A DNA stretch of 64,000 nucleotides, from the NCBI GenBank assembly GCA_902588835.1, contig CACIQQ010000001.1, forward strand, positions 62,001 through 126,000, written 5' to 3'. The notes under the pieces were generated by a model that made no database searches, had not been told where the DNA came from, and worked only from the letters and a program-made list of their open reading frames with translations. This document shows positions 54,740 through 62,097 of the stretch, one piece after another; position 1 is the first letter of the stretch; each line of letters begins with the position of its first letter. The DNA is from an uncultured Pelagibacteraceae bacterium (GTDB taxonomy: Bacteria; Pseudomonadota; Alphaproteobacteria; Pelagibacterales; Pelagibacteraceae). The position numbers and the translations under genes are program-made.

Positions 54740-55339
54740 GTGATTCGTTTTAAATTTTTTTTATCTTTATCAATTTTTTTATTTTTGCTGAGCTGCTCAT
54801 CTATTCCAAAAAATACCTCAAGTAGTTGCTCAATATTTTCTGAAAGATATTTCTGGTATAAGCATGCAAAAAAGACTGAAGAAAAATGGGGAACACCAAT
54901 GCACATACAACTTGCATTTATTAAATTTGAGTCAGATTTCCATTGGCTTGCAAAACCTAAACGACAAAAACTTTTTAAAATAATTCCTTTTAAAAGACCC
55001 TCAAGTTCATTTGGATATTCTCAGGCTGTAAAAGGAACATGGAAACAATATAAGGAGGAACAGAATAAACCATTAGCTCTTAGAACAAGATTTAAGGATA
55101 GCGTTGATTTTATTGGCTGGTATACAAATAAATCATCAAAACTTCTAAAGATACCCAAAAACGATGCATTCAAACAATATATTGCATATCACGAAGGATG
55201 GGGAAATTATAAAAATTATAAAAAAAATGAGAAGGTAATTTCTTATGCAAAAAAAGTAAAAAAGTATTCAGATCAATATAAAACTCAGCTTATAAAATGT
55301 AAAAAAAAGCTTAACAGAAAAAAATTTATTGTTTATTGA
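54740..55339 (+). CDS. Lysozyme/transglycosylase-like lipoprotein
   Basis: Predicted lipoprotein, 199 residues, starting with GTG. Lipobox LFLLSCSS puts the lipidated Cys at about residue 19. The body contains MHIQLAFIKFESDFHWLAKPKR with a candidate catalytic Glu, then SSSFGYSQAVKGTWKQYKEE, and AYHEGWGNYKN, a layout like SLT-type lytic transglycosylases. The catalytic role is inferred. It is 14 bases after the nuclease gene and overlaps the end of the convergent RND gene by seven bases. Confidence 0.7.
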   Translation: MIRFKFFLSLSIFLFLLSCSSIPKNTSSSCSIFSERYFWYKHAKKTEEKWGTPMHIQLAFIKFESDFHWLAKPKRQKLFKIIPFKRPSSSFGYSQAVKGTWKQYKEEQNKPLALRTRFKDSVDFIGWYTNKSSKLLKIPKNDAFKQYIAYHEGWGNYKNYKKNEKVISYAKKVKKYSDQYKTQLIKCKKKLNRKKFIVY

Positions 55340-58300
55340 TTAAGTTCTTTTTCTAACTCTTTTTCAATATGATTTATACTTTTTGTATTCTTTCCTAATA
55401 ACAAATAAATTATTGGAACTACATAAAGTGTAAAAAAGGTCGAAAATATCATTCCAGCAAATATAGTAATACCAACAGATAATCTGCTCGCCTCACCTGG
55501 GCCACTACTTATTACCAATGGTAGAACTCCAATAATGGTAGATATAGAAGTCATTAAGATTGGTCTTAATCTTAGTGCTGACGATTCCAAAATTGCGGTT
55601 AATTGATTTTTCCCTTCATCTCTTAACTGATTTGCAAATTCAACAATTAATATTCCGTTTTTTGTTGCTAATCCAATTAGTATTATTAAAGCAACCTGAC
55701 TATAAACGTTAATTGAGCTACCGACGAGCAGTAGACCTATTATTCCACCAAATATTGCCAACGGCACTGTTAACATTATGGTGAATGGATGGATAAAACT
55801 CTCAAACTGAGCAGCCATCACAAGATATGCTGTCACTAAAGCCAAAAAGAATATTACATAGATCTGAAAACTTATTTCTTTTAGTTGCTCACTCTCCCCC
55901 TTGAAATCAATTCTGGCATCAGGTGTATTTTCTTGAACAACTTTTTCTAAAAAAGATAACGCATTCTGAAGGGTATAATCCCCTACAATATTTGCAGAAA
56001 TGGTAACAGCTTTTTGTCTATTATATCTTGATAGAAATGGAGCAGTTCCTCTTTCATTAATTGTCACTAAATTTGATAAAGCAATTAATTGACCAGAGTT
56101 TTTTGATCTAACATAAACTTTATTTAAACTTGAGGGTTCATTTCTATTTTTAATATCTCCCTGTAAGATAATTGAATATTCCTTACCATCCTTTGTAAAT
56201 TTTGTGACACTTCTTGAGCCAAAAATAGTTTCAATTGTTCGACCTATTTCTGAAGTAGATACGCCAAGATCTGATGCTTTCTTTTGATCTATCTTTACAT
56301 TTATAATTGGTTTATTTAATTCAAAATCGTCTTCGATATTTGCTAAATTATTATTTTTTCTTGCTTCTCTTTTAATAATCTCTTTCCACTCAATAAGTTC
56401 ATCATAGGTATTCCCTAATATTACAAATTGGACTGGTTTCTCTACACCCCCAGTTCTTATTCCCTGAGGCATAACTGGGAACGATAAAACACCGGGAACT
56501 TTTGAAATTTCTCTAAAAGACTCCATCATTATTCTGTTACCTTTTCTGTCTCTTTTTTTCCAATCTTCCAATAATACAATTATAAAAGCTGAATTTACTT
56601 GTTTGCTACTTTTTCCAAAACCTGGCACTCTCAAAATAAGTCTTCTGTATTCACCTTGCCCTACTTTTGGTAATAACAATTTTTCTATATCCTGAGTTTT
56701 AGAGGAAGTGAATTCAAATCCTGAACTTTGAGGAGCCTTCACTATTACAAAGAACGCTCCTCTATCTTCTTTTGGTATAAGTTGTTTAGGAATATAAATG
56801 AATAAACCAATGCATAAAATTAAAATTGATATTAAAAAAGTGATTATGCTTTTTTTCTTTAGTATCCAATATTTAAGTGTGTAAATGTAAAAATCTTTAA
56901 AATTATTTAATTTTTTTTCAAACTTAAGAGTAAATTTATTTCTTTTGGACTTTGCGTCTAGAACTTTACTTGCAATCATTGGGCTTAAAGATAATGCCAC
57001 AAAACTTGATATAATCACCGCAAAACTTAAAGTAACAGCAGTTTCAGCATACAATACTCCAGCTAAACCCTCTATAAAAATCAAAGGTATGAATACAGCG
57101 ACAAGAACTAAAGTGGTTGCTATAATTGCAAAAGACACTTGTCTTGATCCTTTATATGCAGCAACCAAAGAACTCTCACCTTTCTCAACTCTTCTGTATA
57201 TATTTTCCAACATAACAATTGCATCGTCCACCACGATTCCTATTGCAAGCACTAATGCCATAAGAGTGAAGAGATTTATTGAAAAATCAAAAAAATAAAT
57301 TGCTAAAAATGTTGATATTAAAGAGACTGGCAGAGCTACAATTGGTACTATTAAAGCCCTAATGTTACCTAAAAAAAGATAAATAATTAGAGTGACCAAA
57401 ATTAGTGCCACAAATAATGTTTTGTAAACCTCTTTAATTGCATTTGAGACATAATTCGATCTATCAAAAGATACCTCTAATGTAGATCCATCAGGTATAG
57501 AACTTTGTATTTCTTTAATTTTCTTTTTTACTGCTGTAGCTACCGCGATTGTGTTTGCATCTGAGTTTTGATAAATACCAATACCCACAACTTTTTTTCC
57601 ATTTCCTTTAAATAGAGTTCTTGTAGAGACTGGACCAAATTCAATCCTAGAAACATCTTCCAAAGTTGTTACAGAGCCATCGATTGCCCTCTTCAAAGGT
57701 AGTTTTTTATAGGAGTCTAAATTTTCGTAAGCGTTCTCAAGTTTAATTGAAAGATCTACATCTTTCGACTCTATTCGACCAGCAGGAAATTCTAAGTTTT
57801 CAGAATTCAAAACTTGTTCAACGTCTTGAGTAGTTAAGTTTCTAGCAGCTAGCGAAAGAGGATCTAGCCACACTCTTACAGATAGCTCCCTTTCACCACC
57901 TAATCTAACACGTCCAACTCCTTCTACAGTTGAGAAATAATCTACCAAATATCGATCAGCAAAATCAGTAAGTTCTAAATCACTCATAAAATCTGAACTA
58001 AAACTTAGCCACATTGTTGTTCTAAAACCTGCTGATTGTTTAAAAATTTCTGGTGCGCTAGCCTCTTTTGGTAAATTATCCACTACTCTTGAGATTGCAC
58101 TTCTCACATCATTGGCAACATCATCAATATCAAGATTATCTTTGAAGGTCATATCAATTCTTGACCTTTCATCTTCACTCATAGAGTCGATTGAAACGAG
58201 ACCAGGGGTGCCTCCGATAAAATCTTCAATCTTTTGTGTTATCTGAGTGTCAATAACCTGAGCTGAAGCTCCTTTGTAATCAGTCTGAACTGATACTACT

Positions 58301-58428
58301 GGTCGGTCAATATCTGGTAATTCATTAGTTGGTATTTCAAAAAAAACTAAAATACCAAACATAACCATGACTATACTCATCACCATTGAGACGACTGGTC
58401 GTTTGATTGATAAGTCTGTTAAGAACAT
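55333..58428 (-). CDS. RND efflux pump inner-membrane transporter (HAE1 type)
   Basis: Proton-driven resistance-nodulation-division transporter, 1031 residues, about 12 membrane segments and two large periplasmic loops. The N-terminus FLTDLSIKRPVVSMVMSIVMVMFGILVFFEIPTNELPDIDRP is typical. The paired aspartates of proton transfer are in ALVLAIGIVVDDAIVMLENIYRRVE (about 400). The C-terminal repeat has GLATKNGILIVEFANQLRDEG. The DD pair marks the drug/lipid exporter branch rather than metal pumps. Substrate unknown. Its adaptor gene lies three bases upstream; no TolC-like gene is near. Confidence 0.93.
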   Translation of the reverse strand: MFLTDLSIKRPVVSMVMSIVMVMFGILVFFEIPTNELPDIDRPVVSVQTDYKGASAQVIDTQITQKIEDFIGGTPGLVSIDSMSEDERSRIDMTFKDNLDIDDVANDVRSAISRVVDNLPKEASAPEIFKQSAGFRTTMWLSFSSDFMSDLELTDFADRYLVDYFSTVEGVGRVRLGGERELSVRVWLDPLSLAARNLTTQDVEQVLNSENLEFPAGRIESKDVDLSIKLENAYENLDSYKKLPLKRAIDGSVTTLEDVSRIEFGPVSTRTLFKGNGKKVVGIGIYQNSDANTIAVATAVKKKIKEIQSSIPDGSTLEVSFDRSNYVSNAIKEVYKTLFVALILVTLIIYLFLGNIRALIVPIVALPVSLISTFLAIYFFDFSINLFTLMALVLAIGIVVDDAIVMLENIYRRVEKGESSLVAAYKGSRQVSFAIIATTLVLVAVFIPLIFIEGLAGVLYAETAVTLSFAVIISSFVALSLSPMIASKVLDAKSKRNKFTLKFEKKLNNFKDFYIYTLKYWILKKKSIITFLISILILCIGLFIYIPKQLIPKEDRGAFFVIVKAPQSSGFEFTSSKTQDIEKLLLPKVGQGEYRRLILRVPGFGKSSKQVNSAFIIVLLEDWKKRDRKGNRIMMESFREISKVPGVLSFPVMPQGIRTGGVEKPVQFVILGNTYDELIEWKEIIKREARKNNNLANIEDDFELNKPIINVKIDQKKASDLGVSTSEIGRTIETIFGSRSVTKFTKDGKEYSIILQGDIKNRNEPSSLNKVYVRSKNSGQLIALSNLVTINERGTAPFLSRYNRQKAVTISANIVGDYTLQNALSFLEKVVQENTPDARIDFKGESEQLKEISFQIYVIFFLALVTAYLVMAAQFESFIHPFTIMLTVPLAIFGGIIGLLLVGSSINVYSQVALIILIGLATKNGILIVEFANQLRDEGKNQLTAILESSALRLRPILMTSISTIIGVLPLVISSGPGEASRLSVGITIFAGMIFSTFFTLYVVPIIYLLLGKNTKSINHIEKELEKELNQ

Positions 58429-58431
58429 CTT

Positions 58432-59295
58432 CTAATTAATGATTTTAATTTTGATTTTATCTCTTACTTTTGAAATTCCCTCTTTTACTATCTTATCGCC
58501 CACAGATAAACCATCAAGAATAGAAACTTTTCCATAATTTCTTTTTCCAATTTTTACTTCAATTTTCTCAATAGTATTATCCTCTAAAACTTTATAAGCA
58601 AAAGCTGTATCACCCTGTATCAATAATGAGTTTTCAGGAACTCCTATTTCTTGAGTTTCATTATAAATAATTTGAATATCTAAAAGCATCCCTGGGACTA
58701 ATTCTAAATTTTTATTGTCCACTGTGATACTTGCGAGTACTGATCTTGTGCTTGGATCTACACGAGAACTTACAGAGTCTATCTTACCATAAAATATTTT
58801 ATCAAAAGCATCTGATCTTACTTCAGCAACAAGACCTGGTTTTAAAATTTTAAGATAAATCTCGGGAACCTTGATATTTAGAATAATTGATGAGGTGTCA
58901 TCTAAAGTGAGAATAAAAGACTCAGTTCCCAAAACACCTTGTGCAATTTCTCTTTTCCCCAAAACACCTTTAAAGGGTGCGATGATAACTTCATTTTTTG
59001 TTCTTAATAAAACTTCACCCTCATTAAATACTTTTCCAATAAGAATTTTTTCATCAAGCATTTCACTTTTTTTGACTCTAAAATTTTTATTTTTTTTGGA
59101 TAGAGCAGTTCCAAATGTTTCAATACTGTCAAAAAAATTGGATGATTGAACAACCTCAACAATTACTCCTGGTGGTGGATATTTAGAAAACTTTTTTTGA
59201 AAATGTTTTCCAACAAAGTGCCTTGCTATTATCACTGAAACAATGACAATTGCCAATATTATTAAAAATATGGTAATTTTTTTTGAAGTTTTCAT
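58432..59295 (-). CDS. RND periplasmic adaptor (membrane fusion protein) lacking the helical hairpin
   Basis: Membrane-anchored adaptor, 287 residues (usual 350-400). One N-terminal membrane helix (8-27), then VEVVQSSNFFDSIETFGTALSKK. The lipoyl halves are GKVFNEGEVLL and VIIAPFKGVLGKREIAQGVLG; between them only a few residues (RTKNE) remain where typical adaptors hold a coiled-coil hairpin of 60 or more residues. Beta-barrel and membrane-proximal regions follow (IKVPEIYLKILKPGLVAEV; VPENSLLIQGDTAFAYKV). It precedes the RND gene and overlaps the end of sseA by four bases. Confidence 0.87.
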   Translation of the reverse strand: MKTSKKITIFLIILAIVIVSVIIARHFVGKHFQKKFSKYPPPGVIVEVVQSSNFFDSIETFGTALSKKNKNFRVKKSEMLDEKILIGKVFNEGEVLLRTKNEVIIAPFKGVLGKREIAQGVLGTESFILTLDDTSSIILNIKVPEIYLKILKPGLVAEVRSDAFDKIFYGKIDSVSSRVDPSTRSVLASITVDNKNLELVPGMLLDIQIIYNETQEIGVPENSLLIQGDTAFAYKVLEDNTIEKIEVKIGKRNYGKVSILDGLSVGDKIVKEGISKVRDKIKIKIIN

Positions 59296-60116
59296 GCTGG
59301 ATATTTACCATATTCACTCCAAGAACCATCATAAATTTTTGGAATATAATCGTTATTTACCATTTTATAAGCATAAGCTAGGACTGCGGCGGTAACACCA
59401 GATCCGCAAGTAAAAACTGGATCTAATCTTTTTTCTATATTTTCATTTTGATTGAAAAGTTCTCTTAATTCTCTCAAATTTTTGAACTCCCCAGTTTTTT
59501 GATTTATACATAGATTAAAAGGTAAACAAAAAGAGTTTTGAATATGTCCATTTCTTAAACCTTTCCTCGGCTCAGATACCTTTCCCTCAAATCTTTCAAG
59601 GCTTCTTGCATCAATAACATTAAAACTCTTACTTAAAATATTCTTTTTGATTTGATCAAAGCTTACTACTAAATTTTCTTTTTCATTTGTAACATAATTA
59701 CTTTTAATAATTTCTGTCGTAAGTTTAGTAATAGGTTTATTTTCAAAAATCCATTTTTTTAATCCACCATTTAAAATGTGTATTTTTTTTTCATCATGAC
59801 CAAAATATAAAAGACTAAACCATAACCTACATGAACTTTTTAAATCAGAGTTATCATATATGAGAATATCATCATTATTATTTATTCCTAAGGAGGACAT
59901 GATTTTTCCCCAAACTTCTTGTTTTGGAAGCATATGTGGAAGGTCTGTATCTTTTTCAGAGTTTTCATCTAAATCAAAAAAAACAGAATTTGGGATGTGA
60001 GCATTAAGATATTCCTCAGCGGGATTTCTTTTTTGAGCAGGCATATGCCAAGAAGCGTCTATTATTTTAAGACTATTTAAATTTGCGAGAACCCAATCTG
60101 TTGTGACTAAACTCAT
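59292..60116 (-). CDS. sseA: 3-mercaptopyruvate/thiosulfate sulfurtransferase
   Basis: Two-domain rhodanese-type enzyme, 274 residues. The first domain has WHMPAQKRNPAEEYLNAHIPNSVFFDLDE and the second YDARSLERF-like NVIDARSLERFEGKVSEPRKGLRNGHI. The active loop is FTCGSGVTAAVLAYAY with persulfide Cys about residue 237; CGSGVTA is typical of mercaptopyruvate sulfurtransferases. It is directly downstream of msrA (stop and start adjacent), and so likely in one operon with msrA and the RND genes. Confidence 0.9.
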   Translation of the reverse strand: MSLVTTDWVLANLNSLKIIDASWHMPAQKRNPAEEYLNAHIPNSVFFDLDENSEKDTDLPHMLPKQEVWGKIMSSLGINNNDDILIYDNSDLKSSCRLWFSLLYFGHDEKKIHILNGGLKKWIFENKPITKLTTEIIKSNYVTNEKENLVVSFDQIKKNILSKSFNVIDARSLERFEGKVSEPRKGLRNGHIQNSFCLPFNLCINQKTGEFKNLRELRELFNQNENIEKRLDPVFTCGSGVTAAVLAYAYKMVNNDYIPKIYDGSWSEYGKYPA

Positions 60117-61478: not shown

Positions 61479-62097
61479 AAGACCCAAGTATTGGAATAGT
61501 GCTGTAAAATACTTATCCAAAAAAGACCCTGTGATGAAAAAACTGATATCTCAGTACAAAGATAAAACATTAACGACTAGAAAAGATATTTTTTATTCTT
61601 TATGTAAAAGTATTATTGGCCAACAAATAAGTGTACAAGCTGCTAATTCTGTCTTTAAAAAATTTGAAAAAGTTTGTAACGGGAAGATTAATCCTAAAAA
61701 AATTAATAAACTACGTCCTGGTAAACTTAAAAGATGTGGTTTAAGCAGACAAAAAGTAAAAGGTATTAAGGAATTAGCACTTAAATTTGAAAACAAATCT
61801 TTTGATCCAAAAAAAATTAAGTTTATGACTGATGAAGAGGCAATAATTTATTTATCATCGTTAAGGCAAATAGGAAGATGGTCAGCTGAGATGATATTAT
61901 TATTCACACTAAATAGACCAGACATATGGCCAGTCCAAGATATCGGGTTGTTAAGATCTATTTCTAACAATTATAAAAAAAAATATTTACCCCCTAAAAA
62001 ATTCATTGAAATTTTAAGAAAAAAATTTACACCGTATTGCTCAGTTGCAACATGGTATTTGTGGAGATCCATAGATGATGAACCTATTCAGTACTAG
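61471..62097 (+). CDS. DNA-3-methyladenine glycosylase (AlkA-type HhH-GPD)
   Basis: Base-excision repair glycosylase of the helix-hairpin-helix GPD superfamily, 208 residues. It has SIIGQQISVQAANSVFKKFEK, the HhH region LRQIGRWSAEMILLFTLNRPDIWPVQDIGLLRSI with catalytic Asp (about 157), and CSVATWYLWRS. It lacks the N-terminal domain of E. coli AlkA, as in many short bacterial forms. The start overlaps the EamA gene, and its stop is one base from the convergent GT17 stop. Confidence 0.88.
   Translation: MSKRPKYWNSAVKYLSKKDPVMKKLISQYKDKTLTTRKDIFYSLCKSIIGQQISVQAANSVFKKFEKVCNGKINPKKINKLRPGKLKRCGLSRQKVKGIKELALKFENKSFDPKKIKFMTDEEAIIYLSSLRQIGRWSAEMILLFTLNRPDIWPVQDIGLLRSISNNYKKKYLPPKKFIEILRKKFTPYCSVATWYLWRSIDDEPIQY

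Follow-up and report, generated by a model that had tools for sequence, protein, structure and literature searches.

Periplasmic adaptors such as MexA, AcrA and MacA possess a helical hairpin with an RxxxLxxxxxxS motif at its tip, and this motif binds the tip of TolC (PMC3391258). The role of the hairpin is disputed: tip-to-tip models of the tripartite pump require it, whereas the structure of the hairpin-less BesA argues that it is dispensable (PMC4446572, PMC3807786). The lipoprotein BesA, the adaptor of the Borrelia burgdorferi BesABC pump (PDB 4KKS, 4KKT, 4KKU), has a loop of nine residues, and the outer-membrane factor is encoded in the same operon; disruption of this besCAB operon lowered the minimum inhibitory concentrations of drugs up to 64-fold (PMC3807786). 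The BesA authors found similar sequences in spirochaetes other than Borrelia and, in rare cases, in proteobacteria, Legionella among them, and were unable to exclude an additional bridging factor (PMC3807786). BesC has been modelled with a simplified gate, and a review links this weak gate to the hairpin-less partner (PMC8277102). Here, we describe a hairpin-less adaptor of the resistance-nodulation-division (RND) type encoded in a stretch of 64,000 nucleotides (the window; contig CACIQQ010000001.1 of GenBank assembly GCA_902588835.1, forward-strand positions 62,001 to 126,000) from an uncultured Pelagibacteraceae (SAR11) bacterium. SAR11 bacteria are among the most abundant in the ocean.

The adaptor gene occupies positions 58432..59295 on the minus strand of the window, as do all its parts given below, and encodes 287 residues; a plus-strand reading of this interval was rejected as it is full of stops. 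In a profile search, the protein scores 118.4 bits with TIGR01730 (RND_mfp) against a cut-off of 94.9, the match covering only residues 101-285 (model positions 134-321). Directly downstream lies the gene of the partner RND permease, an AcrB-type protein of 1031 residues (55333..58428, minus strand; PF00873, 943.6 bits). With the profile cut-off passed and an RND permease adjacent, the protein is a member of the RND periplasmic adaptor family. The translated sequence contains no Cys that could carry a lipoprotein anchor, and the hydrophobic N-terminal helix (residues 5-36; 59188..59283) is the predicted membrane anchor. The first lipoyl half spans roughly residues 68-99 (58999..59094), as judged from the alignment with hairpin-bearing relatives and from a predicted strand at 95-99. 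The second spans residues ~103-136 (58888..58989; IIAPFKG...), with both PF16576 and PF13437 beginning at residue 102-103. The two half-motifs read ...FNEGEVLLRTKNEVIIAPFKG..., and the rest of the chain (58435..58887) was assigned from the TIGR01730 alignment and from structural similarity to BesA and further adaptors.

A sequence-only reading of this locus had proposed that the hairpin is deleted, given lipoyl half-motifs only about five residues apart and a protein short by about the length of a hairpin. An AlphaFold2 model of the adaptor, built with 30 relatives (mean predicted local distance difference test, pLDDT, of 86.8), bears this out. Strands 95-99 and 103-105 are linked by a three-residue turn, the joint of the two lipoyl halves amounts to approximately 3 to 5 residues, and no hairpin appears anywhere in the modelled chain, in which the sole long helix is formed by residues 5-36. 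Under the identical protocol, the positive control G411, an adaptor of 353 residues from another alphaproteobacterial family, shows helices at 97-125 and 131-156 with pLDDT >90; the protocol is thus able to reveal a hairpin at the equivalent place. Furthermore, sequence alignment with hairpin-bearing relatives leaves a clean gap of ~61 columns at the hairpin site (residues ~97-103 here; 58987..59007). A profile of these relatives matches the copy in genome G012 in two pieces, 10-105 and 164-351, skipping profile positions 106-163. The whole hairpin of ~61 residues is almost certainly absent from the adaptor. The protein therefore lacks the canonical TolC-docking element of the AcrA/MexA type, a helical hairpin with the RLS tip motif, and shows the architecture of the BesA kind, in which a short loop links the two lipoyl halves.

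A structural search of the PDB returned BesA as the best match, with a TM-score by query of 0.64-0.66, compared to at most 0.56 for the other adaptors listed. In both systems the adaptor gene lies next to an RND gene. However, identity in the structural match is only ~20%, the SAR11 turn is shorter than the nine-residue loop of BesA, and a predicted membrane helix anchors the SAR11 protein, whereas BesA is a lipoprotein. MexA, AcrA and MacA share the domain order outside the hairpin with the SAR11 adaptor, but carry the RxxxLxxxxxxS tip that it lacks. The hairpin-bearing alphaproteobacterial adaptors G411, G360, G369 and G534 belong to the same family and have the same adaptor-RND gene order, yet contain a hairpin of ~60 residues between the lipoyl halves. 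As the SAR11 form falls within the alphaproteobacterial adaptors, its loss of the hairpin looks independent of that in BesA.

The short form is fixed in this family. Among 199 genomes of the genus, each at least 85% complete, 192 contain the adaptor, as do 102 of the 104 best ones. In all 80 named loci examined it is short (open reading frames, ORFs, of 268-305 residues, with no extra insertion), so that the survey of other SAR11 adaptors suggested by the sequence-only reading yielded no full-length form among them. The hairpin-less form also occurs in a second Pelagibacteraceae genus, and the named relatives of the adaptor are all Pelagibacteraceae or Candidatus Pelagibacter (SAR11) records. 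In a survey of the whole class, alignment over the whole length was found only in two genera of the Pelagibacteraceae; the other matches listed start at profile positions 57-100 in ORFs of at least 334 residues. Adaptors of Alphaproteobacteria outside the family are longer, and can be aligned only from approximately the second lipoyl half onward. A weak match in G158 was rejected as a full-length form, since only a fragment (profile positions 203-287) is present where the contig begins, while the second weak adaptor match in the genus (G144) belongs to a genome that lacks an RND match as well. ORFs of ~330-340 residues were likewise rejected as hairpin forms where examined: the extra length in G095 (L253:3907-4899) is a Lys-rich C-terminal tail of ~43 residues ending in FDWLKNIFKKSEKEKK and absent from the window protein. 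Reading frames of comparable length (~329-340 residues) are common in the genus.

Gene decay or a sequencing artefact is already contradicted by this conservation. The in-frame loss did take out a part that has a known function, but 192 of the 199 genomes are positive, the matches listed contain no internal stops, and 40 columns are invariant across 30 relatives that are 37-93% identical to the adaptor. In addition, the RND gene adjoins the adaptor in 78 of the 80 loci, and in the other two the locus ends within ~660 bases on the RND side. We regard decay or artefact as extremely improbable. In an RND tree, rooted at the midpoint for drawing only, the Pelagibacteraceae RNDs form one group (100/100) against six RNDs paired with hairpin adaptors, to which they are 35-49% identical (38-49% without G444 and G493). 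Pumps of another family of the same order (f2) were rejected as orthologs, with an RND identity of 19-22% and a different gene order. The simplest reading is one ancestral loss on the stem of the Pelagibacteraceae: an ancestral adaptor of the ordinary type would have lost its ~60-residue hairpin through an in-frame deletion between the lipoyl halves, ahead of the divergence of the two Pelagibacteraceae genera examined. Because the root of the tree is arbitrary, the ancestral state with a hairpin rests on the class-wide distribution.

The sequence-only reading had further suggested that the pump uses a different outer-membrane partner, or none, and exports only to the periplasm. The TolC homologs do not favor this. 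The genome of the window encodes one TolC of 434 residues, located beside recA and unlinked to the pump genes, whereas in BesABC the outer-membrane factor is part of the operon. A TIGR01844 search detected TolC in 12 of 12 Pelagibacteraceae genomes, with an additional weak and partial second TolC-type match in G219 and G226. In the complete, single-contig genome G012, an unfiltered hmmsearch of all ORFs returned one adaptor, the hairpin-less one, and one TolC-type protein; the next matches to the full-length profile, ORFs of 1018, 419 and 144 residues, were read as lipoyl domains of dehydrogenase or carrier proteins. A TolC match is absent in 28 of the 199 genomes of the genus. Of these TolC-less assemblies, 20 were checked, and as the recA match was also missing (15) or partial (5), the absences look like assembly gaps, and the idea that some lineages have truly lost TolC was rejected. 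Many SAR11 drafts with an overall completeness of 85-96% lack the tolC-recA stretch (L039:6478-9004) or have it interrupted, so that the absence of TolC from a draft is weak evidence of loss.

A two-part pump, in which the RND protein and the trimmed adaptor export to the periplasm only and TolC serves another exporter, would fit the disappearance of the hairpin, which is the main TolC contact of the solved pumps, as well as the unlinked position of tolC. Altered TolC tip residues, as described below, would also be expected if selection for adaptor binding had ceased. However, TolC is kept in all 12 genomes tested, no other adaptor was found in the complete G012, and the trimmed adaptor is itself retained nearly everywhere (192 of 199), which together make such a pump unlikely. 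Instead, retention of TolC where the only adaptor found lacks the hairpin argues for coupling, without proving it. We therefore favor, with a probability of about 0.6, the reading that the SAR11 adaptor is the hairpin-less part of a TolC-coupled RND pump; physical coupling to TolC, the opening of TolC and the substrates are inferred. The pump would most likely drain via the sole TolC of the cell, as proposed for Borrelia BesABC, and the lipoyl domains together with the RND docking domain may contact the TolC tip directly, with neither a coiled-coil nor an RxxxLxxxxxxS contact.

The TolC sequences bear on a TolC-coupled pump in both directions. Altered tips speak for it: the TolC tips of 32 Pelagibacteraceae sequences were compared with those of 15 TolC-type sequences whose genomes encode hairpin adaptors. 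The residue preceding the second tip Gly is T, R or S in 32 of 32 Pelagibacteraceae sequences compared to V, L or I in 15 of 15 others, and the equivalent of the secondary-gate residue D374 is Q, N or S in all 32, compared to D (11), N (3) or T (1) in the others. As the 32 sequences all belong to one clade, this is a single evolutionary contrast, not 32 independent ones, and the tip difference may be due to drift. Primary-gate residues, D153 and R367, are matched in the family TolC, with a Tyr at or one place off Y362, as far as motif mapping can tell. The Escherichia coli residue numbers are those we take to correspond by motif to the gate description of PMC8277102. The SAR11 TolC does not show the simplified primary gate of BesC, which weighs against coupling: with primary-gate-like residues kept, its resting state is probably closed, and its opening by an adaptor that has no hairpin is puzzling. 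TolC might also be retained to serve a different client, one not detected by the profiles. Moreover, the two stretches of the RND docking domain that were compared revealed no insertion that would compensate for the hairpin.

The retained primary-gate-like residues, which normally need an adaptor for opening, would be explained if a separate, unrecognized coiled-coil protein or a lipoprotein bridging adaptor and TolC supplied the role of the hairpin in trans, an option likewise left possible by the BesA authors (PMC3807786). Yet no such factor is evident beside the pump, in a look at the flanks rather than a genome-wide search: these contain a rhodanese-like gene and, in the genus, a lipoprotein that does not look like a coiled-coil, and we consider a trans factor improbable. 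A TolC-coupled pump that evolved independently in the Pelagibacteraceae, in which a gated TolC is opened by the transporter or by the lipoyl ring itself, with no adaptor hairpin and with matching changes of the TolC tip, is possible, and we put it forward tentatively.

The rhodanese-like gene (59292..60116, minus strand; PF00581) precedes the adaptor and overlaps its start by 4 bases; the same gene order is found in G012, G219, G095, G338 and G585. A lipoprotein-like gene (54740-55339, plus strand) is convergent with the RND gene, and occupies the equivalent place in G012, G219 and G095, but was not seen in the second-genus genomes G338 and G585. With the RNDs of these two genomes the window RND shares 63-66% identity, compared to only 52-53% with those of G012, G219 and G095 from its own genus, which thus contains two pump types (window 55333-58428; L125:6178-9303). 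Apart from this locus, G219 encodes a very long repeat protein (L251:1-9863; ORF open at the left edge, 1901 residues within), followed by ORFs of 237, 444 and 700 residues, the first with a lipoyl-like sequence. The arrangement looks like a secretion cluster, and a similar cluster in G226 gave weak matches.

The hairpin-less kind of adaptor is already known from BesA; the SAR11 member is notable because it is fixed in this group and because the accompanying TolC still has the look of a gated channel. In the literature on RND efflux in SAR11 and Pelagibacter, no title or abstract opening was found on this pump, which is not proof that it is unrecorded. The departure from the weak-gate pattern of BesC is the most unusual point of the case. 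Furthermore, as a complete genome encodes a single adaptor and a single TolC-type factor, the question of whether TolC and a hairpin-less adaptor work together can be posed free of confounding paralogs. Taken together, the Pelagibacteraceae represent a second, apparently independent loss of the hairpin, fixed across the family, and if a gated TolC is indeed opened without a hairpin, this abundant family would use a mode of coupling that is excluded by tip-to-tip models.
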